The notes below the pieces were generated by a model. It did not search any database, was not told the DNA's origin, and saw only the letters and a program-made list of their open reading frames with translations. This document shows, piece after piece, positions 25,400-55,612 of a DNA stretch of 58,323 nucleotides. The stretch comes from Bacteroidota bacterium. GTDB lineage: Bacteria > Bacteroidota > JABWAT01. The stretch's first letter is position 1, and each line of letters starts with the position of its first letter. The stretch covers positions 1 through 58,323 of the forward strand of contig JABWAT010000015.1 in the NCBI GenBank assembly GCA_013360915.1. Reading direction: 5' to 3'. A program made the position numbers and the translations under genes.

Positions 25400-25413
25400 G
25401 GTGTTACCTCCAG

Positions 25414-25917: not shown

Positions 25918-25931
25918 GGATCGGTCTCCGT

Positions 25932-26021
25932 TTACTTTTTGCCCTGATCGACAGCAGTGACAATAGCAGCAGCGGCGGTGACAACGGCGCTTGCAATGGT
26001 GATGATCGTTTTTGTTTGCAT
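25932..26021 (-). CDS. Micropeptide, Ala/Val-rich type (B1)
   Basis: A 29-residue peptide beginning MQTKTIITIASAVVTAAAAI and ending VTAVDQGKK. It is the first small gene after the Card1-type nuclease gene, 81 nt downstream on the same strand. A GAAGGAAAAGGA run precedes the ATG. The base changes relative to B2 are largely silent or conservative (T for A, I for V), which suggests the peptide sequence is under selection. Confidence 0.75.
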   Translation of the reverse strand: MQTKTIITIASAVVTAAAAIVTAVDQGKK

Positions 26022-26030
26022 GTTGGTCCT

Positions 26031-26095
26031 TTTCCTTCTATTAATAATCTGACCAACAGATAAGAGTGGCAAAGTCTGAACTTTTCCAAAAAGGC
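26031..26095 (-). promoter_or_regulatory. Conserved block upstream of Ala/Val-rich peptide genes
   Basis: Read on the minus strand, this block has TGGAAA, a few bases, TTCAG, then CTCTTATCTGTTGG about 25 nt before the ribosome-binding site. Equivalent blocks lie upstream of B2 (about 25525-25580, CCTCTTATCAGTTGA), B4 (about 24655-24710, CCTCTTATCTTTTGG) and B6 (about 23805-23855, CTCTCTTTACTGTTGG). Non-coding conservation at a fixed distance suggests a promoter or regulator site for each unit. Confidence 0.55.
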
Positions 26096-27539: not shown

Positions 27540-27753
27540 GATGAATACTCCCTTTGATGAATCCAATTACCGGAATGCATGTTTAAAAATAAGCCTGAAG
27601 AAAATAAAAGGAAATGGTCCTGCTGAAACCGGTAGTTAACCATAGTTTGCCCCAAATTGGGTTGTTTTGAACCAAAAATCCCATTGACTGGCATCAACAA
27701 ACACCGGGCTACCCAACCGGACAAAGGAACAGACAAGAAGAATACTGTCACGG

Positions 27754-28936: not shown

Positions 28937-29401
28937 AACTGTTTTTTCAAAGACTTATAAAAACCGCAGATTTATCCAATATTGTCAAAGAACAATAATC
29001 ATGCTTGATAAAACCAATATTATCAATCATTTAGACAAAAAATGGCTTCGTTTCACTGGCAATTTCTCAATCTCCCCCGACTAATCAATTAACCCCATCG
29101 GTTAAGTTCAATATTTTTAATCGTGAATGCAACGATAACTTCAATAATTATATAAACTTAGAAGTGCCCCTTTCGTCTTCTCAATCTGATTGGTTCCGAT
29201 AACCCCATTGCCGGATTGAGAAACTGACCCCCTGCCATGGTATATAATTGGTTACCAAATTTCCGGCATTTTCTCAAATCGGTTTGTTTAAGCCCTCCGT
29301 AATAAGAAATTCGACAATCCGCCGACAGTATCCCAATATAAATGGAGACTACTAACATAAAGAGAATCAATGAGATGCATGGAAATAGCCGGTTTCTCAG
29401 A
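28937..29401 (-). promoter_or_regulatory. Leader of CRISPR array 1
   Basis: An A/T-rich region between the newest repeat and cas2. It contains an inverted repeat (TTCTCAATC at 29178-29186, GATTGAGAA at 29214-29222), and TTTCTCAATC recurs at 29064-29073. Such dyads in leaders can bind host factors or Cas1-Cas2. A minus-strand frame at 29158-29430 covers part of it but I do not accept it as a gene. Confidence 0.65.
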
Positions 29402-29659
29402 TCATGTTCGCTCATGTCGGGTGTACCCATCTGTTTCGATCCTGATCAAACAGGCGTTACAAAGAAAATAATAGCGGATGGTATCACCTTTTCTGAGTAA
29501 ATGCTGAATGTTTCTTCGCAGAGAAGTAAATTGTACCCGGGGTATTACTGCTCCCTCAAATACACTTTTCTGAACCCGCTCAAACCCCTGGTCAATCAGC
29601 AGATCGGCCACCTTTCGGCGAACGATATTTGTCCGGATATCGTATGCAGCAACAATCAT
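29402..29659 (-). CDS. cas2: CRISPR adaptation protein Cas2
   Basis: An 85-residue Cas2. MIVAAYDIRTNIVRRKVADL carries the first ferredoxin-like strand with the conserved aspartate, followed by QGFERVQKSVFEGAV. It should dimerise and bridge Cas1 in the spacer-integration complex. It lies 103 nt after the RT-Cas1 gene and just before the array leader. The C-terminus (RIETDGYTRHERT) is normal in length. Confidence 0.93.
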   Translation of the reverse strand: MIVAAYDIRTNIVRRKVADLLIDQGFERVQKSVFEGAVIPRVQFTSLRRNIQHLLRKGDTIRYYFLCNACLIRIETDGYTRHERT

Positions 29660-29762
29660 GATTTACAGGATGATTTTATCGGACATTTCAGATTTATTTA
29701 GGTTACTGTATTCAATTATCGTGCTAGCATGTATCCGGGGTGTTCAATGGTATTTTCACCGA

Positions 29763-32138
29763 TCACCATTTGAAATGCCATGGAGAAAAATGAGCTCTCT
29801 TACCAGTCAGGTACTCCGCAAGTTCTGTAGCCGTTTCATAAAAAATCACATCCAGACAGGTCTCTTTACCGTGATGGTAAAAGGGTGCATATAACCGGTC
29901 AAGAACCAGTCTTGCAATTGCCTGTTTGACCGGAGGCGAAAACGTGTTGCCTGAATGATGAAGTTTATGCAGCCGGAATGCTTTCAGTATGGCCCGGTCG
30001 ACCAGCGGTTGCCTGAATATTTCAACCAGATCAAAAACAAGGGTTGGTTTTATTTCCTGATCGGAGTGCAGATAGGAAATCAGCGGATTGAGGCCCGCAT
30101 GCACCACAGCAGATAACATCCGGTTATACAGAATACCATACCCATAATTTAAGGAGGCATTAACCAGATCGGTGGCCCCCCGCCTGACCCTGCCTTCAAA
30201 GGGAATTGTGTCTGGCAGCAAATATCTGAAAACCCGCCACCAGGAAGAAGCCGCCAGTCCTTCATAACCCATCAGGCTTGCAGATCGTGACGAGAAATCA
30301 CCTGTAAAGGACAGTTCCGTAATCCGCTTACGGTATTCTGCCATGCGAGTAAGTTCTTCGGCGATCCAATCGGGTGCAGGGTTCTCTGGTACCCGTTGTT
30401 TCATGAAGTACCGGATGACCGCTTCCTGATTGATAATCTTGGATAACACCAACGATTGAGCAATGGTAAATCCTTTGATATTACGGGTTGCCTGTTCCTG
30501 GAAACGGGAAACCTCCCAACCCACATATTCGGGTGAAGTGAGAAAACCCATCGGGGTTCCGTCAGAACTTAATAGTTCAATGCGTATTCCTTCTTTGGCA
30601 CAATCAAGAAGCAGGTCAGAGGATATGGAGCATTTCCTGGCCGAAATGGCTACAGAGCGGAGTGTTGAAAGTGGTTTACTCTTAATGATTTTATTACCTG
30701 CCCTCAGAACTGCGTTAGATCCGGATCTGCCTAAAATTGACCCGGGCTCATCTGCAAGCAGATCGAACCGAAAAGAAAGCAACCGGTTGTAGTACCGCTT
30801 TTTTCGTTCAATTTTCCGCTTGACCGTTTCACCAGCCGGTTTGGCGGATGGTGTTGATTGATCCTCAGCAGGAGAAAAGGGGTGTGGTGCGTCTGAATTG
30901 GCGCTTGTGGCCAACCGTGCGGTAACAGTGGGTTGCCCAGGTGACATTTTTTGACCACGATTCAGAATGACTGGTGCAGGGGGCCACCGCAGAAGCGAGA
31001 TGGTTTTAAGATCGGGAAGCATTCGTTTTAACAGGTCGTTGATTTCAGTTTTTGACTTTCCTTTTTCAGACAATGCCGGGATTGCCTGATACCGTATTTC
31101 CTCCAGAACCTTTCCTTCAAGAATTTTTAATTGGCCGGCCGTTTCCCATGGCCCATAGTAGTGGTGCCATCCTGCCACCAGTTCATTGATATGATGCAAC
31201 CATGCTTTTGGATCCTCTTTTAAAAAGTGCCTGTACTGATGTATGGTTTGATCGGCTCTTTCCATTTTCCCGGGTGCAATGGACCGTTGAACGGCAGCAG
31301 TGCCATCCATGATTGAAAATTGAATGCCACAAAATGAAAAAGGTTGGTTAACCGGTTGGGGTTCGGGTCTGGTGTCATTTAATTTCAGTTTCAATGGGTC
31401 GGCAAGGTAGGCGATTGCAGCGGGAATATGGGAAGATACACAATCAGCTGTCCGTCCCAGAAAGAGAAAATTATCTGCATACCGGACGTAATGAAATCCT
31501 TTTCTGTCGGTTATTACCGCCTGATCGAAACCAGTCAGGTACCAATTGCTGAGCAGAGGAGAAAGAACGCCACCTTGCGGGATACCGACTGTCCTGTCAA
31601 ACCAGACACCACAGCGGATGGATCCCATGCGGGTCCATAATTCCAAAAGATTCAACATCCAGTCATCCTGAATAACCGGGGCTATTTGCTTTCGCAATAC
31701 GGTGTGATTGATGGAATCGAAATAATTATCAATATCGGCCTGCCAGATAAACCCATGTCCGCACTGGATCATTCCGCTGATGGCCCGGATCATAAGCTGG
31801 TGTCCTTTTCCTGGACGGTAGGCATAGGAAAAGGGGGAAAACAGGGGTTCGAGAACCGGTTCAATCTGTCGTTTAACAACCAGTTGTGCCAGTTTGTCCC
31901 GAACCGTCAGCAGTGAAATTTTGCGATAGTCACCAGATCCTGGTTTGGGAATACTGATTGTCAGCGGTGGGTCGGGTGTATAATGACGCTCGTTCAGGTC
32001 GGTGAGTAACTGTTCCAGATTCTGATCGAGCCGTAACCCGAAGTCACGAAGTGAAACCTGATCGACTCCGCCCCCCTTTCCCTTCACCTTAATCAGTTGC
32101 CAACCGGCTTCCAGTTCCTGTTTGCTGGTCTGCCACAT
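29763..32138 (-). CDS. cas1: Reverse transcriptase-Cas1 fusion
   Basis: A 791-residue fusion. Residues 1-330 are a group-II-intron-like reverse transcriptase: KISLLTVRDKLAQ, YAYRPGKG near 108, motif A QADIDNYFDSI near 136, GIPQGGVLSPLLSN near 188, and motif C as YADN (about residue 218) where YADD is usual. A maturase-like thumb region and a proline-rich linker follow. Residues 455-791 are Cas1: ELLSSDGTPMGF, SLMGYEGLAASSWW with the catalytic Glu, YLHSDQE with the His, and TLVFDLVEIFRQP with the Asp. Such fusions allow spacer capture from RNA. It is 6 nt from cas6. The first aspartate of motif C is present but the second is Asn, so cDNA synthesis needs testing. Confidence 0.93.
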   Translation of the reverse strand: MWQTSKQELEAGWQLIKVKGKGGGVDQVSLRDFGLRLDQNLEQLLTDLNERHYTPDPPLTISIPKPGSGDYRKISLLTVRDKLAQLVVKRQIEPVLEPLFSPFSYAYRPGKGHQLMIRAISGMIQCGHGFIWQADIDNYFDSINHTVLRKQIAPVIQDDWMLNLLELWTRMGSIRCGVWFDRTVGIPQGGVLSPLLSNWYLTGFDQAVITDRKGFHYVRYADNFLFLGRTADCVSSHIPAAIAYLADPLKLKLNDTRPEPQPVNQPFSFCGIQFSIMDGTAAVQRSIAPGKMERADQTIHQYRHFLKEDPKAWLHHINELVAGWHHYYGPWETAGQLKILEGKVLEEIRYQAIPALSEKGKSKTEINDLLKRMLPDLKTISLLRWPPAPVILNRGQKMSPGQPTVTARLATSANSDAPHPFSPAEDQSTPSAKPAGETVKRKIERKKRYYNRLLSFRFDLLADEPGSILGRSGSNAVLRAGNKIIKSKPLSTLRSVAISARKCSISSDLLLDCAKEGIRIELLSSDGTPMGFLTSPEYVGWEVSRFQEQATRNIKGFTIAQSLVLSKIINQEAVIRYFMKQRVPENPAPDWIAEELTRMAEYRKRITELSFTGDFSSRSASLMGYEGLAASSWWRVFRYLLPDTIPFEGRVRRGATDLVNASLNYGYGILYNRMLSAVVHAGLNPLISYLHSDQEIKPTLVFDLVEIFRQPLVDRAILKAFRLHKLHHSGNTFSPPVKQAIARLVLDRLYAPFYHHGKETCLDVIFYETATELAEYLTGKRAHFSPWHFKW

Positions 32139-40763: not shown

Positions 40764-41561
40764 TTATCGTGGCTTGCCTGCCCGGTAAAACCGGTACTCA
40801 TCGTCCCAGCAAAACTGAATGCGGTCTTCTTGCCGGCACAACCGCCTGAGTGTTTCCTGAACAGGCACCGGTATGGTGCATGCAGGATGACCGATCAGAT
40901 CGGTGCATGCCTGAAACTGACCGTTCCGCCGCAGGAGATGGGCACTGATGAGTGGTTCGATCATGCAGGTGTTGCCGATGATCATTTGCTGTAACTGATA
41001 CCGGTGGATCCCTGTCTGGTCACGGATACTAAAATAGGCCGGTGCAGGCGGGGGCGTTACCTCAAGAAGCGCAGACAGCCGGCGATTGTTCTCATGTAAA
41101 ACGGTCTCCGTTTCAGCGACATTAAAAAGAGGAAGGCCGTTCCGTTCATTCTCATTGGTCATCCAAAGGATACCTGTTCGCAGATACCTTTCTTCGGAAT
41201 CCGTTTCAAAAATCCCACGGGTCACTGTTTCAATAAAGTCGTCCACGGTGGTTATCATCCGTGAAAATCCGGCCTTGATTCGTTCCACCTCTCCTTCAAA
41301 CTCAAAATCTACCTTCCGGTATTTTCTTTCCCAGGGCGGAACCCGGCGGATTTTCCCGATCTGTTCCAGTTTTTCATACCAGACAATCTGATGGCATCGG
41401 GGACATTTTCCGATTTCACAGATTTCCATCATACCGGGTCCGTAAACTGATCCATCGCAATAATAAATGGCATCAAAATTGTTCCCGCTGTCCATGCTGG
41501 CAACTGCAAGGGGGTTTCCGCAACCGGAACAGGCGTAGACAATATCTGGCCCGATCGTCAT
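40764..41561 (-). CDS. Zinc-ribbon protein of unknown function
   Basis: A 265-residue protein. Two cysteine pairs, CSGCGNPL at residues 11-18 and CPRCHQIVWYE at 53-63, should form a zinc ribbon. The rest has a helical middle (KAGFSRMITTVDDFIETV) and no motif I know. The start overlaps the stop of the C2H2-nuclease gene by 4 nt, so the two products are made together, and the pair lies upstream of cas6-cas10 in the same direction. Confidence 0.6.
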   Translation of the reverse strand: MTIGPDIVYACSGCGNPLAVASMDSGNNFDAIYYCDGSVYGPGMMEICEIGKCPRCHQIVWYEKLEQIGKIRRVPPWERKYRKVDFEFEGEVERIKAGFSRMITTVDDFIETVTRGIFETDSEERYLRTGILWMTNENERNGLPLFNVAETETVLHENNRRLSALLEVTPPPAPAYFSIRDQTGIHRYQLQQMIIGNTCMIEPLISAHLLRRNGQFQACTDLIGHPACTIPVPVQETLRRLCRQEDRIQFCWDDEYRFYRAGKPR

Positions 41562-42334
41562 GAACTCCTCTTTTCCTCATCTGCCAGCGGACCGATCAGG
41601 TGATCCCGGACGGACGGCCATTGGGTATCCCACCTGGGTGGTGCCGGCATTTCCTGCCAATCCCGGAATGTCAGCCAGATAAACTCTGGAAATGCGTCCT
41701 TTTCAGGGTCTTGTGAAATGATCACAAACCGGACCTTGTCTGGCAAAGGAGATGAACCGATCAGTCCCCGGAGATACCGGTATTTCTGTTTTTTTGCGGA
41801 CCGGGCCTCGACCTGCTGCAGTCCACGCATCAGGACGCCGGGTGTTGTTTTCAGCAATGCCTGATAAACCTGCAATTGATCATCCCGCCTGCTGGACCGG
41901 TCGGTCTTCAGTTCTGCCAGAATCCATTCATCCTGACCGGAGGGATCCCGGCGGTTCAGCAGAAAATCAGCATTGGTGCTTTGAGCAGACCCCGCCTTTT
42001 TCAGCGGAAATTCCGGCGCGATCAGTGTAACCGATCCTCCCAGTTTCCATTCGAGAAAGGAAGGGAGAAACAGAGCCAGCAGGGTGCCGGTGGCCCGCTC
42101 ATACTGGTATTTCGGGACCGCACGCCATCGGTTAAGCAAAACCAGGTAGTCCCGTAACAACGGATCGGCTGGCTCTGAAAGTGCCGGCCGGGGAACTGGT
42201 GATGGCTGATCGGTCCGTCCCATGCCATCATGTCCGCCATACCGGCTGCTGCCGTTGATGTGCTTTTGCAAATGGTGCTCCGAGGCTGCTGAAATTCCGC
42301 AGAGCGGACAGTGAAATTGCTTCGTTGATTTCAT
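41558..42334 (-). CDS. C2H2-zinc-finger PD-(D/E)XK nuclease-like protein
   Basis: A 258-residue protein. Residues 9-33 hold a C2H2-like finger (CPLCG...HLQKHINGSSRYGGH). A linker leads to a PD-(D/E)XK-like core: NADFLLNRRDPSGQDEWILAELKTD near residues 123-147 gives an aspartate then E-L-K, followed by DQLQVYQALL, a typical helix with Gln/Tyr. ALFLPSFLEWKLGG precedes it. It could be a sequence-guided or accessory nuclease of the type III locus. No family name assigned. Confidence 0.65.
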   Translation of the reverse strand: MKSTKQFHCPLCGISAASEHHLQKHINGSSRYGGHDGMGRTDQPSPVPRPALSEPADPLLRDYLVLLNRWRAVPKYQYERATGTLLALFLPSFLEWKLGGSVTLIAPEFPLKKAGSAQSTNADFLLNRRDPSGQDEWILAELKTDRSSRRDDQLQVYQALLKTTPGVLMRGLQQVEARSAKKQKYRYLRGLIGSSPLPDKVRFVIISQDPEKDAFPEFIWLTFRDWQEMPAPPRWDTQWPSVRDHLIGPLADEEKRSS

Positions 42335-42358: not shown

Positions 42359-42688
42359 TTAATTGAGTTGATTTCCTGTATCGACGGCATTCAGCGAACC
42401 TGCAGGCGGATCTTCTTCTGGTGTGACCATGAAATAGGATTCAATGTGGTGTGTGTTTGAATCGGTCCGGATGTTTTTCTGAATGGAAAAAGCGTGATCC
42501 TTGTGGCAGAACAGATAAATGACAGTTTCAGCCGGTTGGCCGGGAAAAACAAACCGGGCCTTCATTTCCAGCTGATACCGGTAAATGATATCAAAGGCCT
42601 CTTCTTCGGTCAGATAATACTTTTTGATTGCGTCGGGCATAAAGTCGGGTGGTTTCTTAAAAACCGGGGATGTGTTCTTTTTTTCCAT
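42359..42688 (-). CDS. Hypothetical protein in CRISPR operon
   Basis: A 109-residue protein I do not recognise. A helix (TEEEAFDIIYRYQLEMKARF) and two strands (ETVIYLFCHKD, HHIESYFMVTPEE) are the visible elements. It precedes the C2H2-nuclease gene by 24 nt. Confidence 0.55.
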   Translation of the reverse strand: MEKKNTSPVFKKPPDFMPDAIKKYYLTEEEAFDIIYRYQLEMKARFVFPGQPAETVIYLFCHKDHAFSIQKNIRTDSNTHHIESYFMVTPEEDPPAGSLNAVDTGNQLN

Positions 42689-42777
42689 GGCCGTTCAGTT
42701 TATTCCTTGTTTTCCTGATAAGAGGAGTAAACCTGCCGGTTTTCCAGACGGGCAAGCAAAAAAAGACAGTTACCGGT

Positions 42778-43581
42778 TTAGCCGCCGGTGGCTAACGGAA
42801 ATTTCTGATCAAAGGCCGCCAGCACCGATAGAAATTCATCGGGCAACCGTTCCGTGACTTCATGGTATATGCTGTCAGGTATGTGGTTATAAAACGCGGC
42901 GGCGATTCCGCCGGTGATGCAGGCAATGGTATCGCTGTCACCCCCGATGGATATGGCCAGACGGATGGCACTTTCAAAATCGCTGCTCTCAAGAAAGGCC
43001 ACGATGGCCTGTGGTACCGATCCCTGACAGGTTTCATCGAATTGATAGTAGTCGCGGATGGAACCGGGCGTGAACCCAAGGTCATATTCAAAAACAGAAA
43101 TGATGTGTTCACGGATTTCGGTTTTAGCGGCCCCGTGCCGTGCAAGAAAGATGGCAGAAGTCACCGCCTGTGCGCCCTTGATTCCTTCGGGATGATTGTG
43201 AGTAACCTGCGCACTTTCTCTGGCGAGTTCCATGGCGGACACGAGCGTGGTTGCCGCAAATCCCACCGGACTGACCCGCATGGCAGACCCGTTGCCAAAA
43301 CTGTTGTAGGGTTGTGGTTTTTCTGATTGAATCCACTTTTTAAACCGGCCGCCATATCCTCTGCCCGGATAGGCCCGTGCATAGCCATGCAGCAAACGGG
43401 AAAGATCCCCGCCGTGAACCAGCCAATCGGCGACGGCAACGGTAAGGACGGTGTCATCGGTAAAATCCGATTCAGTCACAAACAGGGGAAAACTGGTGGA
43501 CCGGCAATTGTCCCATTCGAAAACCGAGCCGATCACATCGCCGGCAATGGCACCAAGAATGGTGTGTGAGAGTGTGTTCAT
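42778..43581 (-). CDS. ADP-ribosylglycohydrolase family protein
   Basis: A 267-residue DraG/ARH-fold enzyme. LGAIAGDVIGSVFEW at residues 6-20, SDFTDDTVLTVAVADWL near 38 (metal-binding T-D-D), NSFGNGSAMRVSPVGF near 93-108 and SIGGDSDTIACITGGIAAAF near 217 (second metal site, D-S-D-T) are all diagnostic. It should remove ADP-ribose from a protein, nucleic acid or small molecule. Start at 43581 has a GAAAGGGG site upstream. It is the first gene of the minus-strand run leading into the csm genes. Confidence 0.9.
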   Translation of the reverse strand: MNTLSHTILGAIAGDVIGSVFEWDNCRSTSFPLFVTESDFTDDTVLTVAVADWLVHGGDLSRLLHGYARAYPGRGYGGRFKKWIQSEKPQPYNSFGNGSAMRVSPVGFAATTLVSAMELARESAQVTHNHPEGIKGAQAVTSAIFLARHGAAKTEIREHIISVFEYDLGFTPGSIRDYYQFDETCQGSVPQAIVAFLESSDFESAIRLAISIGGDSDTIACITGGIAAAFYNHIPDSIYHEVTERLPDEFLSVLAAFDQKFPLATGG

Positions 43582-43988
43582 GACAGGGCCCCTTTCAACA
43601 TGATATAAAACATACAAAAAATGAATCAGGACTGGAAACCAGTGGCCACGACATGAAATTCTGGCCGAACGTGGTTCAGCAGTTTACATACCTGATCGGA
43701 TTGGCGTTTCTCTTAACCCGTCCATAAAAGATGTCATTGGTAATGGGATGTGAATACAGATAAAAATAGTACCTGTGTGCTTTCTGGACTATTTCAGGAA
43801 TTGAATCTATAAGTTAATCAACCGCTGGGAATGACTGTTTGTCGGGATTGCAGATTCGTTCACTGATTACCCGTATTGAATGATTGTGAATCCGACTGTC
43901 AGCACCGCCAGCGGAGGCATCTTCCCACTGCACAACCCGTTAAGAAAAACAGAGTAGAAGCCGCAGCATGTATTGAATGTTTATTGGC
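43582..43988. other. Intergenic region, no gene seen
   Basis: Likely holds the promoter of the long minus-strand operon. A/T-rich around 43600-43625 and 43755-43815. No motif or RNA gene recognised. Confidence 0.35.
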
Positions 43989-44710: not shown

Positions 44711-44902
44711 GGCCATTCCACGATAGTAAATAGGCAAAAAAGGGAATGAGTGACAAGAAAAGAATGACGAGTAGGAAAAGTACTCCCCGTATCTGGGAAT
44801 GTTATCAATGAAAACCCATTTACCCGTATTTAATGAATTAATCTCATCACCAATCACTACTCACTGGCAAAGCCAGCAATTCCACAATGGTAAAAAGCAG
44901 AT
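44711..44902 (-). repeat. Degenerate trailing repeats of CRISPR array 2
   Basis: Two decayed repeats lie left of the intact array, at about 44711-44737 (CATTCCACGATAGTAAATAG) and 44873-44902 (GCAATTCCACAATGGTAAAA). Each is preceded by CTACTCACTGG, so a block was duplicated. Decay at this end fits the trailer of an array transcribed leftward. Confidence 0.75.
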
Positions 44903-44937
44903 CAGAAAAAAGGGTGGGTTAGTCAATGGAAACGATC

Positions 44938-47100
44938 GTCGCAATTCCACTATGGTAAAAGGCAGATGGTAAGCCAATAATTTCACCCATTATTTTTAAT
45001 GGGTCGCAATTCCACTATGGTAAAAAGCAGATGAACTGAATTTTGACAAAGCGATTGATGCTGTGCTGTCGCAATTCCACTATGGTAAAAAGTAGATAAA
45101 AAATTGGATATCACAGCACCGGACCGATCTGAGTCGCAATTCCACTATGGTAAAAAGCAGATACTCAAGCAATTGAATTATTGAAAGAGTACGGATGTCG
45201 CAATTCCACTATGGTAAAAAGCAGATTCGAGCAGTACACCAACCGGCAGAAGCACATTCAGTCGCAATTCCACTATGGTAAAAAGCAGATACAACGTCTG
45301 CAATGCCAAATACACCGGAAAGATGTCGCAATTCCACTATGGTAAAAAGCAGATACCGACATAGCAAACACACGATTGGTCAAATTGTTTGGTCGCAATT
45401 CCACTATGGTAAAAAGCAGATTCGTGCCGATTGGCATTGGAAGATATCTGTACAAGTCGCAATTCCACTATGGTAAAAAGCAGATGCTAAAGACGCTACG
45501 GCTGTAGTGATTGAAGATAAAGTCGCAATTCCACTATGGTAAAAAGCAGATCGTTTCGGTGAATGGCCTCTTAAGGTGATTAAAACGTCGCAATTCCACT
45601 ATGGTAAAAAGCAGATACAAACAGCCTTCCGGATGCATTCGCCCAACCTGGTCGCAATTCCACTATGGTAAAAAGCAGATGTCAAAAATAAACCAACCAT
45701 AGTAAGAAAGGGATGGTCGCAATTCCACTATGGTAAAAAGCAGATACAAAGGTTTCCATTGCTAAGGCATTGGATATCGGTCGCAATTCCACTATGGTAA
45801 AAAGCAGATAGATGGCGGCCGGGTCTCTGTATACAGAACCCGCGTCGCAATTCCACTATGGTAAAAAGCAGATGCCAGATTCACCATATTCTCTTCTCTC
45901 AGCCGGTGTCGCAATTCCACTATGGTAAAAAGCAGATAAGTCCGTGATTAACGTAAAAAGGAGACAACAATGGTCGCAATTCCACTATGGTAAAAAGCAG
46001 ATTAGTACTACGATTGTAGTAGACTCTTTGCTGAGTGTCGCAATTCCACTATGGTAAAAAGCAGATAGTATGGCTGGTGATAGGTTCGTGGTTACAAAAA
46101 GGTCGCAATTCCACTATGGTAAAAAGCAGATGAACTCGAAACGCTGTCAGCCGCCGGGACTCTGAGTCGCAATTCCACTATGGTAAAAAGCAGATTCACA
46201 ATGAAGAAACCATCACAATAAAATCGGAGGTCGCAATTCCACTATGGTAAAAAGCAGATTTCCCACCCCCCTCTATCCGGTTAAATTACGCTAGTCGCAA
46301 TTCCACTATGGTAAAAAGCAGATAAACGGCCGGACAGTTATGGGATAATTACATCGTGTCGCAATTCCACTATGGTAAAAAGCAGATACCAATGGTAGAT
46401 TTTTTAAGGTTAGCTCAAGAAGGTCGCAATTCCACTATGGTAAAAAGCAGATTTGTTGGCGGTAGTTTTTTCATTGATATAGATGATGTCGCAATTCCAC
46501 TATGGTAAAAAGCAGATGTGTGTGTATATATATTGTAAGGGATGTCACCAATTGGTCGCAATTCCACTATGGTAAAAAGCAGATCACCAGCAGAAGCGTT
46601 TGTTCACCACCACATTAGGTCGCAATTCCACTATGGTAAAAAGCAGATGACGTAGAAGTTGATGGTAAAATTGTGCCTGAAAGTCGCAATTCCACTATGG
46701 TAAAAAGCAGATAATTTACGACAAGCGTCAAAGCCGGATTTATGGAGGTCGCAATTCCACTATGGTAAAAAGCAGATGGATTGCATAAGGCAACAATCCG
46801 GGCGTCGATTCCGTCGCAATTCCACTATGGTAAAAAGCAGATTCGTGACAAACGTACCGGTAGATTTACTAAATTAGGTCGCAATTCCACTATGGTAAAA
46901 AGCAGATGGCGTAGCCATAGCGACGGGAGTCGCTTAAATAGGTCGCAATTCCACTATGGTAAAAAGCAGATGATCAGCGAGTTCGGCAGGTGGGTCCACA
47001 TCAGGTCGCAATTCCACTATGGTAAAAAGCAGATTTGGAAGCCGTTACCGCTCCGGCGATTGTCTCCTGAGTCGCAATTCCACTATGGTAAAAAGCAGAT
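44938..47100 (-). CRISPR. CRISPR array 2 (34 repeats of 30 bp)
   Basis: Thirty-four 30-bp repeats (plus strand GTCGCAATTCCACTATGGTA then AAAAGCAGAT) run from 44938 to 47100 at intervals of 63-67 bp, giving spacers of about 33-37 bp. The repeats at 44938 and 45068 carry single changes; the others I checked are identical. On the minus strand the repeat holds CCA-TAG-TGG and ends in ATTGCGAC, the same 8-nt tag as array 1. Size, spacer length and the neighbouring Cas1 fit a type I-B-like array. Leader at the right, beside cas1. None of the spacers drew a match to other parts of the window by eye. Confidence 0.97.
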
Positions 47101-47281
47101 AAGACATAGCCAAAATAAGACGGATTTGCCGGTTTTTCAACCACTAACTGGGCAGAACAACCCGCCGGGAGGCTTCGCTTACCCATGTTGAGGGATACAA
47201 AAACAACCCCGTTTTGGCCCGTTGTTACAATCCGGTGACAGAATGTTTCGATTGGTCCTTAAAAAACGTCCCGGTTCAAGG
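47101..47281 (-). promoter_or_regulatory. Leader of CRISPR array 2 and end of cas1 transcript
   Basis: Between the newest repeat and cas1. On the minus strand an AACAAC...GTTGTT dyad with a following TTTTTG (about 47200-47226) looks like a weak terminator for cas2-cas1; the remaining 100 bp next to the array would hold the leader promoter. Confidence 0.5.
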
Positions 47282-48382
47282 TCAGACCGGCAGTTCAAAA
47301 AACTGCAGATCTGACCCGTCATCAATGAAGTGTCTCAGGCAGATGGCATCGGTTCGGATGATCTGCCTCCAGTTCATGCTTCTCTTGTGAACAGGGTGAA
47401 GCAAAGTGGTTTTAATCCGGTTTTCCCATTCCCGTGTGACCAGAATCCGGGCCGCCCGGTTAAGCCATACCCCATCCTTGTCGGGTGAGGTTTCAAAATC
47501 GGTGGGTGAGAATTGCCGGCGGTTAAAGAGTGTAAGTGCCAGGCGGTCAGCCAGAATGGGTTTGAAGATATCGGCCAGATCGAGAGCCAGACTCTGGCGG
47601 TTTACCCGGTTTGAATGAATATAGCCCAATCCCGGGTGCAAACCGGCACGGGCGATTTCGGTTGCCACGGTACCGTACAACAAGGTATTCAGCCAGGAAA
47701 TCACCGCATTAACCGGGTCTCCCGGGGGCTGCCGGTCACGTCCACTGAACGTCCATGGCGGATTCAATAGACTTCCGATAGCAGTGTAATACTCCTTTTT
47801 GCAGCGTGCCTCGGCCAGAAACCGGGCACTTTCATCGGGAAGCCGGTCCCATTGTTCAATTTCGGCTTCAAGCATGGCAATGGAATCGCCAAACGGGCAA
47901 CCGTGATACCGGTGACCCCTGAGTACCTGCCTCATGTTTACCACCGATGCCAACTGAATCTCTGAGGCCGTATAGGCTTTTTGCTCCGCCTTCAGAATAC
48001 TGGATGCCTGGTTTAAAAGAACAGGTGACTCACCAGCCATTTGGCCAGGCCACCAGGTACCGGTCACATTTCCGCGGTAGTTCACCAGAAAGAGCGGAAT
48101 CTGATGTCTGGACAGGAGTTCAAAAAACCGGTTGTTCATGCAGAGTTCGGTCATGACCCACATGGCATCGATTTCCTCGATGGGGATGACCCGTTTTTCG
48201 CGGATGTTTCGGTCACTGCGTTTCAGGCTCCATTCCGGCGTCATTTCATCTCCGATAGAAGCCAGCAGGGTATCATCATACCCATCGGCATGACTGGTTT
48301 CATCAACCAGCGGTTCAAACCAGACGGTGCTGTCCTTGCGGCGCAGCCGGCCGGTGTGGAATAAATAGAAAGCTTGTTTCAT
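47282..48382 (-). CDS. cas1: Cas1 (type I-B-like), stand-alone
   Basis: A 366-residue Cas1 without a reverse transcriptase. MKQAFYLFHTGRLRRKDSTV and RVIPIEEIDAMWVMTEL are typical of the type I-B/III group; FLAEARCKKEYYTAI near residue 188 has the catalytic Glu, GLHPGLGYIHSNR near 250 the His, and LALDLADIFKP near 266 the Asp. It starts 3 nt after cas2. It should serve array 2, giving the window a second, independent adaptation module. Confidence 0.95.
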   Translation of the reverse strand: MKQAFYLFHTGRLRRKDSTVWFEPLVDETSHADGYDDTLLASIGDEMTPEWSLKRSDRNIREKRVIPIEEIDAMWVMTELCMNNRFFELLSRHQIPLFLVNYRGNVTGTWWPGQMAGESPVLLNQASSILKAEQKAYTASEIQLASVVNMRQVLRGHRYHGCPFGDSIAMLEAEIEQWDRLPDESARFLAEARCKKEYYTAIGSLLNPPWTFSGRDRQPPGDPVNAVISWLNTLLYGTVATEIARAGLHPGLGYIHSNRVNRQSLALDLADIFKPILADRLALTLFNRRQFSPTDFETSPDKDGVWLNRAARILVTREWENRIKTTLLHPVHKRSMNWRQIIRTDAICLRHFIDDGSDLQFFELPV

Positions 48383-48385
48383 GGT

Positions 48386-48652
48386 TCACTCCAGTATGTG
48401 GTCAGTCTGACCTTTTTGCAATCCATAGATATCTCTTCTGAGGTATTTATTGCCGCTGAACCGGTATAGGATGAGCGAATCTGTGTCGGGATCCATCAGG
48501 GCACCAGCCCGTTCAGTCAGCACATGCACCTGTGACTCGGTCAGCTCTCCTTCAAAGACCGAGTTCTGAACCCAGTGCAGATACTGCCGGAACAGTTTCA
48601 GCATTTTGGGCAACCGCCGGGTGCCGATGTCATAGACAGCGATCAGATACAT
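48386..48652 (-). CDS. cas2: Cas2, second copy
   Basis: An 88-residue Cas2. The start at 48652 (MYLIAVYDIGTRRLPKML) is chosen over an upstream ATG because the first strand with its aspartate must lie at the N-terminus. YLHWVQNSVFEGELTESQ is characteristic. Confidence 0.93.
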   Translation of the reverse strand: MYLIAVYDIGTRRLPKMLKLFRQYLHWVQNSVFEGELTESQVHVLTERAGALMDPDTDSLILYRFSGNKYLRRDIYGLQKGQTDHILE

Positions 48653-48884
48653 GATGGTTAGTTGGTTAATAAATTGTCTAATTGACCTCGTCACGTTGTG
48701 ATCGGATTCTCCCAATGAGGCCAGATTGGTGTCTGCAACGAAAATGCCAAACTCCGGCCGGCAGCCCTTCCGGCTACTTACCGACCTGCCTGGAAATCGG
48801 GTTACCGGGAGAACCCCACCCCGATAAGAGGTTTATTTTGGATTTCTTTCCAGTTATATTAACTGAAACTAAAGCAGATTGATT

Positions 48885-49367
48885 ATGAATCTTCTCAATC
48901 GTTTGTTTTCAGATCCGGATGATGAGGTCTTTACCCGTACCGTTGAAAAAATCAGAGCCTACCGGGAGCGGAAGGCTGTTTTAACGGAGGAAGAAGAAAA
49001 GGTGGCCGGGTTGAAGCCGGGCCAGGTCTGGCTGGTTCCTGATTCCCGGGTACAGTTCCGCGATGAAAGTAAAACCCGTACAGATCACGACTTCCGGCCG
49101 GGCATAACCGGAAACCAGGAACCAAGCGAACCATCCCGCACGGTTCAGTGGGTGCCACTATCCACCAAATTGAAAAACCGGCAAGCGGAAGTCATCGTTT
49201 ATCTCGATCCGGTTTCCGAACCGGTGGATGAACCCTGTGTGGCATTAATTGACCATTTTCTCTGGTTCCGGCCGAAAACGCTGACTGATAAAAAAGGGAA
49301 GCTTTCTGAAGGAAAGAAACATGAACTGATGGAAAAACTGGCGGCGTTCGTTCAAAGCTATGAGTGA
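48885..49367 (+). CDS. MazF/PemK-like protein
   Basis: A 160-residue protein. After a helical N-terminus, residues 45-150 follow a MazF/PemK-like order: LKPGQVWLVPD, DHDFRPGI, VQWVPLSTKLKNRQAEVIVY, and PCVALIDHFLWFRPKTLTDK then GKLSEGKKHELMEKL, the family-like final helix. MazF proteins are RNases; related domains also occur in CalpT, the partner of the CRISPR Lon protease CalpL. No antitoxin-like gene sits beside it; instead it overlaps the sigma-like gene by 8 nt. Fold assignment comes from the pattern and is moderately sure. Confidence 0.55.
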   Translation: MNLLNRLFSDPDDEVFTRTVEKIRAYRERKAVLTEEEEKVAGLKPGQVWLVPDSRVQFRDESKTRTDHDFRPGITGNQEPSEPSRTVQWVPLSTKLKNRQAEVIVYLDPVSEPVDEPCVALIDHFLWFRPKTLTDKKGKLSEGKKHELMEKLAAFVQSYE

Positions 49368-50490
49368 AGATTTTCAAACACCACACTCTCGTTCCTTTCA
49401 GGAGAAGGACCAATTCAAATCAATCTTTGAAGGTATGACATCAGGCCAAATGTCTGCAGCTACCCATTCCTTCCTCTATCAGTACGTCCGTGACATCGTT
49501 TATACCACCAGTTACCGCAAGGATTATGGTTTTATTCATGAAATTGTTACCGACGTCGTTTCCAGTGTCTGGCAGGCAATTAGCAATGGTGCACCTGTTC
49601 CCGATAATCCGACATCCTATTTGTGGTTAGTTGCCAGAAACAAATTGATGGAATACAGGTACTCACACATCAATCCCAGGTACAATAATTTTGAGGAAGT
49701 GATTACCGAGGCACTTGATAAACTGGAAAATGATCATGTTCTGGCCTCTTATCAGAAAAAGCGCTATGCACGCACAGCGGATTTACTGAACAGGGAAGAA
49801 TTTGATACGGATGATTTTCTCAGATTGTGGATTCAATCAACCCAACACCAGCAATTTCCGGAACCGGCAGGCAACTGGACGCCGGCAATGAAAACTCAAC
49901 TTAGAGAAAATCTGACACTCACCTTTTCAGAAATGAACGGATGGTCATGGAAACGATCGGTTACCAATGCAATTACCAGTAAGGCTGGAATTGTCCGGGA
50001 ATTGTTTCACGATTCGTCCCGGGAGGATGAAGAAACCGACGGCCAGTCAAATTCCTTAAACGAGGGGGTCGAATGGTCTGACCCGTCCGTTGAATTATCA
50101 TACACTGAATTTATTTCTGATGTATCCGCTGAATTAGTCAATCAGGTTATGGCAGGTAAACCGCCTGGTGAACTCGTGGCTACTGCATGGTATCTGGTGT
50201 TCAATACTGATTTTACGCTCAAATCCGTTCAGAATGCTTTGCTTCTGAGAGGAACAAGTTCAGCAGAGTACCTCCTTAAAAAACAATTGCGGATTTTGAA
50301 TGATGAAAATGGTTCGGAAAGCCTACCTTTAATCTGGCGCCGGCGGCTGGCCCGTTTACCCGATTGGAACAATTCCGAATCGGCAGGTAAACTTTTGATG
50401 GATTTAGAAACCCGGTTTATTTCGGACCTTAAACGATTAACAAAAGATTTATATGAAAAATATGGACGTGAAACCTATCCTGGACTCTGA
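49360..50490 (+). CDS. Sigma-70 region-2-like protein
   Basis: A 376-residue protein. Residues 38-105 resemble sigma region 2 of ECF-type factors: FLYQYVRDIVYTTSYRKDYG, then IHEIVTDVVSSVWQAI (the helix that binds polymerase) and NPTSYLWLVARNKLMEYRYS (the DNA-melting helix). After that, 250 residues of helical sequence lack a clear region 4, so it is not a standard sigma factor. A TDxxFTLKSVQNALLLRG segment near 285-305 might be a helix-turn-helix. It overlaps both neighbours and is surely co-translated with them. Sigma-like identity is inference from pattern. Confidence 0.55.
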   Translation: MSEDFQTPHSRSFQEKDQFKSIFEGMTSGQMSAATHSFLYQYVRDIVYTTSYRKDYGFIHEIVTDVVSSVWQAISNGAPVPDNPTSYLWLVARNKLMEYRYSHINPRYNNFEEVITEALDKLENDHVLASYQKKRYARTADLLNREEFDTDDFLRLWIQSTQHQQFPEPAGNWTPAMKTQLRENLTLTFSEMNGWSWKRSVTNAITSKAGIVRELFHDSSREDEETDGQSNSLNEGVEWSDPSVELSYTEFISDVSAELVNQVMAGKPPGELVATAWYLVFNTDFTLKSVQNALLLRGTSSAEYLLKKQLRILNDENGSESLPLIWRRRLARLPDWNNSESAGKLLMDLETRFISDLKRLTKDLYEKYGRETYPGL

Positions 50491-51646
50491 TGGGGATCGG
50501 GGAGACCTCATCCGTCGCTGGGTTTGGAAGGAAACCTCAATAACTGAAGGGGATTTGGCCAATCAACTTGTCTCGCAAGACAGACAGTGGTCTGACTACG
50601 CCGATATGATCCAGTTTAATTTTCCAACCCGGGCGGATTGGGATCAGAATGACGTGCCACCAGAATTCATTCAGCAATCCTATTCAGATTTAATGGCAGG
50701 TGAAGAAATTTGTTCGCCCGAATCCGGTCAAATCTGGCAGATTGATAATCCGCAAATGAAAGTCCTTGTATTAACCACTCCCTCTCCGGAAACCAATTTT
50801 CTTTTTCGTGTGGTACCGGTCACCATGCGTGCAGAACAGGGGACTGTTGGTGATCCGGTCTGGACCGGGCGGGGACTCCCGCGAATTTTTATGATCCGAG
50901 CCGTTGGCACAATGAACGAGTCCCAATTGAACCGGTATGCAGAAAAAATACCGGAAGAAATTACTAAAAAGATTTTACAATCCACTGTTAATCTGAATTC
51001 GATTCACGATGATGAACTGTACTGGCTATCGGATCATAATATTATTGAATGGGAAGATCCGCTGGGATATCAGGAGGGCGTTCAGGAGTGGATGCGGCAG
51101 CAGACATTCCGGGCATTAGAATGGGCGGAGGAAATGGATTCCCGGCATAACCAATTGGCTGATACCATCCTGCCGTTGATTCAGGGTTTTCAGGACTATG
51201 GAAATAAACTGGCGGCAAGTAGTGGGGGAGGAATTGGTGCAATTTTCAACTCAGGGGCAATTTCTGGAATAGTAGCACCTGGGATTGGTGCTATTTTGGG
51301 TGCACTTGGTGGTAGACATATGGGAAGTTTAACAGAAAAATTAAAGGCCTTTGTTGATACTGGCGAGGTTCTGTACGGAAATGACGATCTGCTTTTTCGG
51401 TTAAAACCGGTGGATGGGCATCTGGAATTGTGGTTAACCTTTACCGATGCCTCTGTTAAAGAACTCGACTGGGTAAAAATTGAAGGAACCGGGTTACCCT
51501 TACAAACCATTAGTCATTTTGGAAAATCCGGTCTTGCCTTCGCTTTTCAGATACCAGTGATAACAGATTTTCCTGCATTTTTCAGTAAACCCATCCGGAT
51601 TGAGGTGAAACCCAAGGGCCGCCGGGCCTTTTCCAAAGTGATATGA
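50453..51646 (+). CDS. Unknown protein with glycine-zipper segment
   Basis: A 397-residue protein of no family I know. Residues 254-287 form a glycine-zipper-like hydrophobic stretch (GGGIGAIFNSGAISGIVAPG then IGAILGALGG), the kind found in membrane-inserting toxins and effectors. A SPESGQIWQI segment near residue 85 followed by FRVVPVTMRA is faintly like a second MazF-type barrel. The C-terminal 110 residues are strand-rich. It overlaps the sigma-like gene by 38 nt and the protease gene by 4 nt. Confidence 0.55.
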   Translation: MKNMDVKPILDSDGDRGDLIRRWVWKETSITEGDLANQLVSQDRQWSDYADMIQFNFPTRADWDQNDVPPEFIQQSYSDLMAGEEICSPESGQIWQIDNPQMKVLVLTTPSPETNFLFRVVPVTMRAEQGTVGDPVWTGRGLPRIFMIRAVGTMNESQLNRYAEKIPEEITKKILQSTVNLNSIHDDELYWLSDHNIIEWEDPLGYQEGVQEWMRQQTFRALEWAEEMDSRHNQLADTILPLIQGFQDYGNKLAASSGGGIGAIFNSGAISGIVAPGIGAILGALGGRHMGSLTEKLKAFVDTGEVLYGNDDLLFRLKPVDGHLELWLTFTDASVKELDWVKIEGTGLPLQTISHFGKSGLAFAFQIPVITDFPAFFSKPIRIEVKPKGRRAFSKVI

Positions 51647-52788
51647 ACCGGTTTTCAGAGCAGGATTGGTACCGGTTGCTTGAAATGGGTAGTGTCAACC
51701 GGGCAGTTCAGTATCTCGCAGGCTTTTTTTTGAACCTTCCCTCACGTGATCAGATTCAATTTCTTGAAGCATTTCTTTCCAATCCCGGGCGGCTGAGTCA
51801 GTGTCATCCTCCCGCCATTCAGGCGCTGAATGACATGCTTTCCAGATCAGGAAGGGATCTTATTCCCACGCCGGTACCTGTTGACGCAGCCCTTCTGCCC
51901 GGTGATGGGTCTGTGGTAGTTGTAAACCCAGTCCATCCCTTCATCAGTTGTGTGCTTCCGGTCCGTTTCAGAGAGCCTGGCACTCTAAATTTTGTTAATG
52001 CCGATCAAAGGGATCTGATCATCCGGTTGGCCAGCCGTGTGCTAACTGGTTTTCTGCCTGAATGGACCTTGCTATTATCGCCGTCCGCTCAGACCATTTT
52101 TGGTCATTATTCAATACCGGATGATTCCGGGGAATCTGAGGAACGCGTTGAAGGAGATTCCATGATCCTTCCGTTGGTGATGTTTCTCATCAGTTACCTG
52201 ATTCAGAAACCGATTCCTTCCGACATGGCATTTACTGGTCATGTCAGTGAAGACGGCCGGTTATTGCCAGTCAGTCATATTCCTGACAAGGCAAGTATAC
52301 TTGCGGATGAACAACCACACCTGACCAGACTGATTGTACCTGCCACCAGTGATGTTGGTAAAAGTTTAAAAATGCAGGCACCAATCATTTTCCCTCTTTC
52401 AAGCCTGGACGATGTGGTGTCACTGTGCTGGCCGGAAGGGATTCAGGTCCCCGGTTCCCGCCAAATGACCATTGGTCGCGAAAAAACAGACTCCATGCCA
52501 GGTGCGTTGAAATTGTCATTGGCTGTGCCCGCTGGTATCCAATACTCTGCTGACTTGATTTCACACTTTCGGCTTGAAAACTGGCTTGGGAAAATTCCGA
52601 AGGAAGAATGCAAGTATCTTTTATTTGACAATTTTCGTGCATCCTGGCTGATGGGTTTTATTGGTGCCGAAGTAAAAAATCATTGCCAATGGGCTGCTGC
52701 GTATGATTCAGCCGGTGGATATTATATCGTGTTTTATTCAAGGAATCCGGGGAGCATGCGACCCGGTGCGCAATTGCGAATTACCTGA
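51643..52788 (+). CDS. Lon-type Ser-Lys protease, possible signalling effector
   Basis: A 381-residue protein with a Lon-like proteolytic domain at residues 165-290: EGDSMILPLVMFLISYL holds Ser173, and DMAFTGHVSEDGRLLPVSHIPDKASIL holds Lys216. The 43-residue Ser-Lys spacing equals that of E. coli Lon (679/722), and TGHVSEDGRLLPV matches the TGEVxxxGxVLPV strand. There is no AAA domain. The last 90 residues (KYLLFDNFRASWLMGFIGAE, then AAYDSAGGYYIVFYS) recall the end of a SAVED domain, but are too short for a whole one. In CalpL, a CRISPR Lon protease, a SAVED domain triggers cleavage of CalpT to free a sigma factor; this operon has the same kinds of part. Confidence 0.75.
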   Translation: MNRFSEQDWYRLLEMGSVNRAVQYLAGFFLNLPSRDQIQFLEAFLSNPGRLSQCHPPAIQALNDMLSRSGRDLIPTPVPVDAALLPGDGSVVVVNPVHPFISCVLPVRFREPGTLNFVNADQRDLIIRLASRVLTGFLPEWTLLLSPSAQTIFGHYSIPDDSGESEERVEGDSMILPLVMFLISYLIQKPIPSDMAFTGHVSEDGRLLPVSHIPDKASILADEQPHLTRLIVPATSDVGKSLKMQAPIIFPLSSLDDVVSLCWPEGIQVPGSRQMTIGREKTDSMPGALKLSLAVPAGIQYSADLISHFRLENWLGKIPKEECKYLLFDNFRASWLMGFIGAEVKNHCQWAAAYDSAGGYYIVFYSRNPGSMRPGAQLRIT

Positions 52789-53702: not shown

Positions 53703-55562
53703 ATGCTGGTTTATCGGGAAAATAAATCAACCTTTCAGTCTCATGTTGTTCATGGTGAGATTGAGCAAAAAATTGCCGACGCCATGCTTCAACGTCTCCA
53801 TCGACGGGTTGCACAAAAGGAACTGGATGCATATTGGAATTCACTGACCTTTATGTCCCGGGTTATCGATGATCCGGTGATTCCAGATTCGGCAGGTATT
53901 GCCATTGAACTGCAGATTCCACAAACCAGCAAGCGGATTGATTTCATCATTTCGGGCCAGGATGAGCATAAAAAAGGACATGTGGTTATTGTTGAATTAA
54001 AGCAATGGACTTCTGCTGAATTAACCCCAAAAGATGGTGTTGTTAAAACGGCTCTTGGACGCGGTCTTCATGAAACTGCTCATCCTTCTTATCAGGCTTA
54101 TTCCTATGCATCCCTGCTCAGGGATTTCTCAGAAACCGTTGAACGCGAAGATATTTCACTTCGCCCATGCGCTTACCTGCACAATTATCTGGAAGATGAT
54201 GTCATCCGGCATCCATTTTATCAGGAGTACCTCGATCGGGCTCCTGTTTTCCTAAAAAAAGATCAGTTGAAATTACGTGCCTTTATCAGTCAGTTTATTA
54301 AAACCGGTGATAATGGTGAGATGATGTACCGGATTGATCAGGGAAGAATCCGGCCATCGAAGTTTCTCATCGATGCGCTTTCCGGAATGATGGCGGGACG
54401 AAAGGAATTTGTTTTGCTGGATGAACAGAAGTTGGTTTATGAAACGGCTCTGGATCTTACGACCATGGCACAATCCGGCCCGAAGCAGGTCTTGATAGTA
54501 GAAGGGGGGCCGGGAACCGGAAAATCAGTCATTGCAATTAATCTCCTTAATGCAATTACTAAAAAGGAGTTAATCACCCAATACGTGACCAAAAATGCCG
54601 CTCCCCGGGCTGTCTTTCAGTCCGTTTTAACAAGATCCATGAAAAAGAACCGGTTTTCTGCTTTATTTCAGGGATCGGGTCGGTTTATCGAAGCTCCGAA
54701 AAATGCCTATGACTTGCTGATCGTGGATGAAGCCCATCGGCTGAATGAAAAGTCCGGGTTATATGGGGCAGATGGTGATAACCAAATTAAGGAAATCATC
54801 CATGCGTCCAAAGGTTCGGTGTTTTTTATCGATGAAGATCAGCGGGTCACCTTGAAGGATATCGGGAGTAAGGACGAAATCAGAAAATGGGCAACATTGG
54901 CAGGTGCAGATGTTACAGAATTGGAGTTGGTTTCCCAATTCAGGTGTAATGGCTCGGATGGATATATGGCTTTCCTGGATCACTTGCTGCAGATCAGGGA
55001 AACAGCTAACCAGTCAGTTAGCGGCTTAAATTTTGATTTCCGTGTCCTTGATACACCAAGTGATCTGCGAGACCTGATTTTTGAGAAGAACAAAGAAGCA
55101 AACCGGGCGCGATTGGTTGCGGGGTATTGCTGGGATTGGGTGAGTAAGAACAACCCTCGTCTGGATGATATAGTTTTTCCTGAATTTGGCTTCAGCATGA
55201 AATGGAATTTATCTGTTGATTCCAGTTTATGGATCGTGAAGCATGATTCTGTAAATGAAATTGGTTGTATCCACACCTGTCAGGGACTTGAAGTTGATTA
55301 CGTTGGTGTAATTATTGGTCCGGATTTAATTGTCAGAGATGGGACCGTATTGGTGGATCCGGCTAAGCGTTCAAAAATGGATAAAACATTATTCGGATAT
55401 AAGAAACTGGTGAAAGAACACGGGGAGCTGGCAAAGGAAAAAATCCGATCGATTATTAAAAACACCTACCGTACCTTAATGACTCGGGGAATTAAAGGAT
55501 GTTATGTGTATGCAGTGGATGTCGAAACGAATGAGTATTTGAAAAAACATTTCAGGGCATAG
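53703..55562 (+). CDS. DUF2075 helicase/ATPase with N-terminal nuclease-like domain
   Basis: A 619-residue protein. An N-terminal region (residues 70-110) has RIDFIISG and VVIVELKQW, a D...E-L-K PD-(D/E)XK-like core. From residue 240 it is a DUF2075 P-loop module: Walker A VEGGPGTGKSVIAIN near 268, Walker B LLIVDEAHRL near 340, FFIDEDQRV near 378, and IGCIHTCQGLEVDYVGVIIG near 519 as the late superfamily 1-like motif. DUF2075 genes are common in defence islands. Probably acts on nucleic acid with MazG as partner. Confidence 0.88.
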   Translation: MLVYRENKSTFQSHVVHGEIEQKIADAMLQRLHRRVAQKELDAYWNSLTFMSRVIDDPVIPDSAGIAIELQIPQTSKRIDFIISGQDEHKKGHVVIVELKQWTSAELTPKDGVVKTALGRGLHETAHPSYQAYSYASLLRDFSETVEREDISLRPCAYLHNYLEDDVIRHPFYQEYLDRAPVFLKKDQLKLRAFISQFIKTGDNGEMMYRIDQGRIRPSKFLIDALSGMMAGRKEFVLLDEQKLVYETALDLTTMAQSGPKQVLIVEGGPGTGKSVIAINLLNAITKKELITQYVTKNAAPRAVFQSVLTRSMKKNRFSALFQGSGRFIEAPKNAYDLLIVDEAHRLNEKSGLYGADGDNQIKEIIHASKGSVFFIDEDQRVTLKDIGSKDEIRKWATLAGADVTELELVSQFRCNGSDGYMAFLDHLLQIRETANQSVSGLNFDFRVLDTPSDLRDLIFEKNKEANRARLVAGYCWDWVSKNNPRLDDIVFPEFGFSMKWNLSVDSSLWIVKHDSVNEIGCIHTCQGLEVDYVGVIIGPDLIVRDGTVLVDPAKRSKMDKTLFGYKKLVKEHGELAKEKIRSIIKNTYRTLMTRGIKGCYVYAVDVETNEYLKKHFRA

Positions 55563-55612
55563 CAAAATGGGAAAATCAGAGATTTAACGAAAAGTAGAAA
55601 GGACAAATATTA

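Follow-up and report, generated by a model that had tools for sequence, protein, structure and literature searches.

A finger-nuclease gene unit as a possible member of a putative CRISPR-island sigma regulon in a Bacteroidota bacterium

Introduction

The release of a sigma factor by type III CRISPR systems has precedents. For the CASP-sigma of type III-E, the accessible sections of the description place three binding motifs within the locus that encodes it, with cas1 among the sites, and report few regulated genes, mostly of unknown role (PMC10028731). In the CalpL/CalpT/CalpS system, a Lon protease cleaves an anti-sigma factor and frees an ECF sigma factor; the available portions of the two accounts name no target genes for CalpS (PMC11417357, PMC12751052). 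In NucC, the hexameric nuclease is described as forming a pocket for cA3, in a report whose main text does not contain the word 'zinc' (PMC11229360).

Here we describe a finger-nuclease gene and a neighboring gene for a zinc-ribbon protein (ZRP) that lie upstream of a type III-A CRISPR locus. The stretch of DNA that was analyzed, referred to below as the window, is a complete 58-kb contig that makes up 1.6% of a 3.65-Mb genome. Searches of the open-access literature found no description of this nuclease-ZRP pair.

To the extent that the accessible descriptions allow comparison, the window resembles the Csx29-Csx30-CASP-sigma circuit in having a putative CRISPR-encoded ECF sigma factor, motifs in the locus that include cas1, and the predicted logic of a protease combined with an anti-sigma factor. 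It differs from that circuit in its type III-A (csm) locus, in a protease that is Lon-like rather than TPR-CHAT, and in candidate targets that include the finger nuclease, the ZRP and small peptides. The Cas7-11 and Csx29 of type III-E were not found at the window locus, which has Cas10 and separate Csm/RAMP genes. With CalpL-CalpT-CalpS, again on the published parts available, the window shares a Lon-type protease, a candidate anti-sigma factor and an ECF-type sigma factor that lie together near type III genes – though its Lon-like protein has no SAVED match and an extra short MazF-like gene is present.

Results

Organization of the nuclease genes and the CRISPR island

The type III-A locus lies on the minus strand and encodes RT-Cas1, a Cas6-like RAMP protein, Csx20, Csm5, Cas10 and Cas6, together with three genes that we took, from position and sequence, to be csm4, csm3 and csm2. 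The translated Cas10 retains its HD and GGDD motifs. Going upstream from cas6, we observed the ZRP gene (40764-41561, minus strand; 265 aa), the finger-nuclease gene (41558-42334, minus strand; 258 aa), which is assigned to the PD-(D/E)XK family, and, 24 nt further upstream, a small ORF of 109 aa (42359-42688, minus strand). The nuclease and ZRP genes overlap by 4 nt (ATGA). A sequence-only reading of this DNA had described them as coupled genes in line with cas6-cas10; the coordinates, overlap, strand and order are as it stated, with 96 nt of AT-rich sequence between cas6 and the ZRP gene. Given the length of the two ORFs and the homologs found for each, chance is not a concern.

The 109-aa ORF was assigned no family by Pfam, NCBIfam or PADLOC and is probably the first gene of a three-gene unit that runs from 42688 to 40764. 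The unit is preceded by an ADP-ribosylglycohydrolase gene (42778-43617) that ends in a terminator-like hairpin (42789-42772), a feature that is not enriched here (7 versus 5.3 in shuffles). Matches to promoter and terminator consensus sequences in the surroundings of the nuclease-ZRP pair were at chance level.

Elsewhere in the window, two regions (27735-32138 and 44870-48715) hold two CRISPR arrays with differing repeats and two adaptation sets, one with RT-Cas1 and the other a separate cas1-cas2 (47282-48715, minus strand; recognized from ORFs and PADLOC). We also observed genes for a CARF-adenosine deaminase (21149-23011, plus strand; PADLOC CARF_ADA, E 9e-144) and for a CARF-PD-(D/E)XK nuclease with modest PADLOC matches (26103-27566, minus strand). 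At 53703-56500 on the plus strand, a Schlafen-type helicase gene (PF09848, E 9e-102) is followed by a DUF559-like gene, and the PADLOC matches of these genes are AbiO/Nhi-like. Palindrome-rich intergenic repeats (CCGGAC...GTCCGG) are common to distant parts of the contig (11166-11400 and 57518-58317).

A predicted PD-(D/E)XK nuclease with a finger-like N-terminus

Pfam, NCBIfam and PADLOC assigned the finger-nuclease to no nuclease family, and in the same databases the pair matched no known type III ancillary protein, as the sequence-only reading had anticipated. That reading had also proposed a C2H2-like finger joined to a PD-(D/E)XK core, and the two parts emerged with different strength. 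The finger (residues 7-35; 42230-42316, minus strand) is weak by HMM: it has the spacing F7-x-C9-x2-C12-x12-H25, with the following histidine not before H35, and scores E 0.0016 and 19.2 bits against Pfam zf-met, under the curated cut-off of 21.2. It was not confidently modeled by AlphaFold (pLDDT mostly below 50).

The core (residues 58-207; 41714-42163, minus strand), which contains E79, D123, E141-x-K143 and Q153, is corroborated by alignment, model and fold matches. An AlphaFold model built from a 50-row alignment has pLDDT above 90 over most of residues 71-230 and shows the order helix-strand-strand-strand-helix expected of PD-(D/E)XK proteins. In this model D123 lies in strand 119-129, E141 and K143 lie in strand 135-143, and Q153 falls in the expected element. 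Foldseek matched the model to Exo5 (E 3e-4), HamA, MspJI, SduA and Card1, and VIA-align matched it to NucS/EndoMS (Z 8.1 and 7.7) and Card1 (Z 7.1). Because these Z values are middling, they support the fold and point to no particular relative. The original proposal was to be abandoned if modeling revealed no nuclease fold; the fold was found, and as modeled the 41558-42334 product belongs to the PD-(D/E)XK superfamily. Consistent with its intact catalytic residues, it would be an active nuclease.

Approximately 57 residues precede the core, and no CARF or SAVED sensor was matched in the nuclease by Pfam, NCBIfam, PADLOC or the model, in agreement with the earlier remark that no CARF domain is visible. 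The window nuclease thus has its PD-(D/E)XK fold in common with the CARF nucleases Card1 and Can2 (6xl1, 8q43), at Z 7.1 for Card1, but differs from them in the missing CARF domain, and the Z value is within the range of common arrangements. Its only cysteines are C9 and C12, and Cas4-type cysteines were not found.

A widespread family with the window nuclease as a divergent member

After profile steps via two relatives from the same phylum, bacterial and archaeal genomes were scanned with a motif, which returned at least 118 loci. Among the matches listed, profile scoring identified 89 family members in 87 of the 118 loci. This uncharacterized family has the signature WRxLPxYQLER...IPEFP...D...ELKTD, and the titles of 80 listed loci include Gammaproteobacteria, Bacteroidetes, Chloroflexota, Spirochaetes, Verrucomicrobia, Planctomycetota, Myxococcota, Clostridia, archaea and others.

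Several candidate matches were set aside along the way. The first motif scan, of viral contigs, recovered mostly short ELKTD proteins that we read as VRR-NUC-like, and the pattern was therefore altered before the genome scan. In the 80 loci listed, 17 of 81 pattern matches were dropped for want of an upstream PE[FLI]P-type motif. Searches by peptide pattern found no close relatives in viral contigs or genome contigs, and tblastn with the nuclease gave one plasmid match, judged to be chance, and no phage match.

A family profile built without the window nuclease (57 sequences by our own count) matched it with 111 bits (E 8e-34), and this was the single match of the profile among the 199 window ORFs. 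Residues P74, E79, D123, E141, K143, T144, D145, S148, Q153 and P210 are invariant in 50 aligned sequences; the scan pattern partly imposed E141, K143, T144, D145, S148 and Q153, but not P74, E79, D123 and P210. By profile and alignment, the window nuclease is a divergent member of this widespread uncharacterized family: it shares the core, spacing and catalytic residues, and its identity to the other 49 sequences in the alignment is 19-32%. In contrast to the rest of the family, it has an extra N-terminal finger, marked divergence and other neighbors. Among the matches listed, none of the 89 members, read as ORFs begun at the first start codon, has an N-terminal C-x2-4-C-x8-16-H finger.

Within three genes of the nuclease in the 87 loci listed, we counted DUF2779 (23), WYL-like (9), AAA-like (7), MBL-fold (5) and HsdM-like (3) genes, the labels having been verified in Pfam for sample members. 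The genes in front of one fetched relative look to us like a type III restriction set. As annotated, the neighbors of the family elsewhere are often defence-like. In the window, a divergent WYL regulator (2840-3832) and DUF2779 gene (4049-5995) lie at 2840-5995, ~36 kb from the nuclease; elsewhere both families adjoin the nuclease family.

Phmmer searches with 16 CRISPR-region proteins (E<=1e-3) found no cas homologs near the nuclease family in the 118 loci listed. With single-sequence queries and loci no longer than 8 kb, this search may have overlooked distant cas genes. In 1 of the 118 loci listed (L093:1-3824), a family member is near a 27-repeat CRISPR array. The idea of a CRISPR-specific nuclease family was rejected after the genome pattern scan, in which no cas matches were found near members in the loci listed.

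The zinc-ribbon protein and its relatives

The cysteine pairs CSGCG and CPRC are visible in the ZRP; among 394 genomes of the phylum, 6 others encode a relative. In two of these relatives, the alignment shows most ribbon cysteines gone and the SGNTF...DG region kept, which indicates that zinc binding is not universal. Pfam, NCBIfam and PADLOC gave no CARF or SAVED match to the ZRP.

Neighborhoods of the ZRP relatives, inspected by eye, contain methyltransferase genes in one case and household genes in others. The relative in genome G002 lies in a defence-like island with BREX-like and helicase-nuclease genes, and a short CRISPR-like repeat run is found ~6 kb from it, which makes an array the case for 1 of 6. 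Three ZRP pattern matches in viral contigs were examined and none proved to be a relative; a search of plasmids returned one Prevotella hypothetical protein.

ZRP homologs were found in none of the 118 nuclease-scan loci among the matches listed, and in none of 9 nuclease-bearing genomes searched whole, a search that had no positive control. Judging from these genomic contexts, both families occur mostly away from CRISPR, and phyletic association does not appear to link the pair to it. The suggestion of a recurrent CRISPR-linked unit was consequently not upheld: we did not find the pair together elsewhere, and an occurrence mainly away from CRISPR loci, which the sequence-only reading had itself named as evidence against its proposal, is largely what we observed. 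The interpretation given in that reading is thus partly supported: both genes are genuine, unusual and located in the CRISPR island, but they come from general families. The best link of the pair to CRISPR is instead a shared promoter-like element with a plausible sigma circuit nearby.

A promoter-like element shared by the nuclease unit, cas2-cas1 and small-peptide cassettes

Upstream of the 109-aa ORF, a repeat search picked out 33 nt that are also found beside the CARF nuclease and have the fixed core TGGAAA-N17-TCTTAT. E. coli sigma-E recognizes GGAAC and TCTGA-like boxes, and by sequence the core looks like an ECF-sigma-type promoter.

Scanning for the exact core located copies 30 nt before the 109-aa ORF (42718-42746, minus strand), upstream of cas2-cas1 (48824-48852, minus strand) and inside the sigma-like gene described below (49724-49752, plus strand). 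The others, all on the minus strand, precede small-peptide cassettes: one adjoining the CARF nuclease (26060-26088), two more (25542-25570 and 24676-24704) and a degenerate one (23624-23652). All 7 exact copies in the 3.65-Mb genome are on the window contig, and a reversed control pattern has 1 copy in the genome. In the window, exact and one-mismatch matches to an 11-base core number 11 versus 1.8 expected, a count reached in 0 of 100 shuffles.

These counts are to be read with the way the pattern arose. It was derived from five copies, with the cas2-cas1 and intragenic sigma copies not used, and four copies sit at duplicated cassettes and so are not independent. When one mismatch is allowed across the whole genome, the element is found at 30 places versus 26 for the control and is thus not commoner; its non-exact places number 23 in the genome, 2 of them on the window contig. 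Among all hexamer-N17-hexamer pairs outside the arrays in the window, the element and its reverse complement rank joint second, first place going to a palindromic repeat. No exact element was found before the sigma-like gene on its own strand or before cas6-cas10, and nothing resembling it was found in the island of the related genome G002, a genome that holds both a sigma cassette and a ZRP.

Downstream of the CARF nuclease, at 23449-26021 on the minus strand, we observed a cassette that is repeated four or five times, and four of the repeats carry the exact element. Each repeat contains two tiny hydrophobic ORFs, for example MQTKTIVAIASAVVAAAATIVSAVDQDKK and MQRIAPSTEEIITTTGIPAIIRIIVSTIIK, which are possible membrane peptides.

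A sigma-like, MazF-like and Lon-like gene cassette

Adjoining cas2-cas1 is a cassette with the gene order MazF-like / ECF sigma-like / MazF-like / Lon-like, all on the plus strand. Its genes encode a 162-aa PemK/MazF-like protein (48879-49367; Pfam PemK_toxin E 0.0056, below cut-off), a 376-aa ECF sigma-like protein (49360-50490), a 397-aa candidate anti-sigma factor (50453-51646) and a 381-aa Lon-like protease (51643-52788; Pfam Lon_C E 5.7e-5, over cut-off; PADLOC CRISPR-Lon E 2.3e-6). In the 397-aa protein we read a MazF-like GQIW...VVPVT segment, and BLAST matched it at E 1.7e-4 to the equivalent gene of another genome. PADLOC and PDB matches to the Lon-like protein cover its Lon part, and no SAVED or CARF match was found outside it.

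Structural modeling predicts that the 49360-50490 product has an ECF sigma region 2 fold. A single-sequence model of residues 1-150 (mean pLDDT 62) was aligned to known structures, and rows 1-41 were all sigma factors, with the first other row at Z 6.0. The best match was E. coli sigma-E (1or7_B; Z 11.4, rmsd 1.9 A over 90 residues). Foldseek ranks 1-9 were likewise all sigma factors, the best at E 0.088. Sequence searches were silent: the protein had no Pfam match, none of the 13 Sigma70_r2 matches in the genome is at this gene, the profile score was not significant (E about 0.07), and no sequence search named it sigma. Its one plasmid tblastn match (E 0.6) is annotated as an RNA polymerase sigma-70 factor, and a viral 'relative' was read as a terminase-like chance match. 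The correspondence with the ECF sigma factor of CalpL/CalpT/CalpS is therefore one of predicted region-2 fold.

Similar cassettes, recognized by their Lon-like and MazF-like genes, are present in three more genomes (G002, G183 and G065), where the gene order recurs. The G002 cassette is in a defence-like island; near the G183 and G065 cassettes we saw no defence genes.

Discussion

We consider that the best reading of this locus, held at just short of even confidence, is an inducible nuclease operon within a CRISPR-island sigma regulon. The likeness to CalpL/CalpT/CalpS and CASP-sigma leads us to propose that a circuit of this kind has the finger nuclease and ZRP among its outputs. The Lon-like protease would be activated by a signal, which may be phage stress or cyclic oligoadenylate made by Cas10, and would then cut the MazF-like anti-sigma factor and free the ECF sigma factor. 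The freed sigma factor would transcribe the genes behind TGGAAA-N17-TCTTAT, namely cas2-cas1, the small hydrophobic peptides by the CARF nuclease, and the nuclease unit. The nuclease would act as a second-line effector that cuts DNA, and the finger and ZRP would help to choose or regulate its substrate. The nuclease-ZRP pair may thus belong to a defence programme that is set off by an alarm.

The main alternative, which we hold to be less likely, is an independent passenger of a defence island: the nuclease, ZRP and small ORF would form a stand-alone defence or toxin-like unit, its CRISPR neighborhood would be incidental, and the element would have been locally copied or be a general local promoter. 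Both families do occur mainly away from CRISPR, nuclease relatives adjoin DUF2779, WYL and HsdM genes and in one case a presumed type III restriction-modification set, the ZRP relative of G002 is in a defence-like island, and WYL and DUF2779 genes are also present in the window (2840-5995). Against this, the exact element is confined to this contig in the whole genome and stands before cas2-cas1 as well, and the nuclease and ZRP were not found paired elsewhere.

That cas2-cas1 is preceded by the same element raises the further idea that the nuclease, switched on with these genes, helps adaptation by trimming or supplying DNA for spacers as a stand-in for Cas4. No cas4 was seen in the CRISPR region, and the top Foldseek matches are to human Exo5, which we take to be Cas4/RecB-like. 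Nevertheless, this role is improbable: the Exo5 match is weak (TM 0.18), many PD-(D/E)XK families score alike, and the nuclease has no cysteine outside its finger. Four cysteines hold the Fe-S cluster of Cas4, so a Cas4-type cluster is not to be expected here. Even less probable, and in our view very unlikely, is a type III ancillary nuclease that is activated by cOA or bound to the Cas10 complex. The position of the pair between an array and cas6-cas10 and the preserved HD and GGDD motifs of Cas10 would fit such a role, but the ~57 residues before the core leave the nuclease with no CARF/SAVED match, and the ZRP has none either.

Returning to the inducible operon, its wider form is a type III-A island with its own ECF-sigma regulon, in which CRISPR sensing or phage stress would lead to a second transcriptional wave of defence; this we put forward as a possibility, with rather more reserve. 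Its outputs would be cas2-cas1, the repeated small hydrophobic peptides, and the zinc-finger nuclease with its zinc-ribbon partner. A single motif here singles out a few candidate targets that can be tested, namely cas2-cas1, the two-peptide cassettes and the finger-nuclease operon. If true, the window would offer a concrete case of what a CRISPR-linked transcriptional response turns on.
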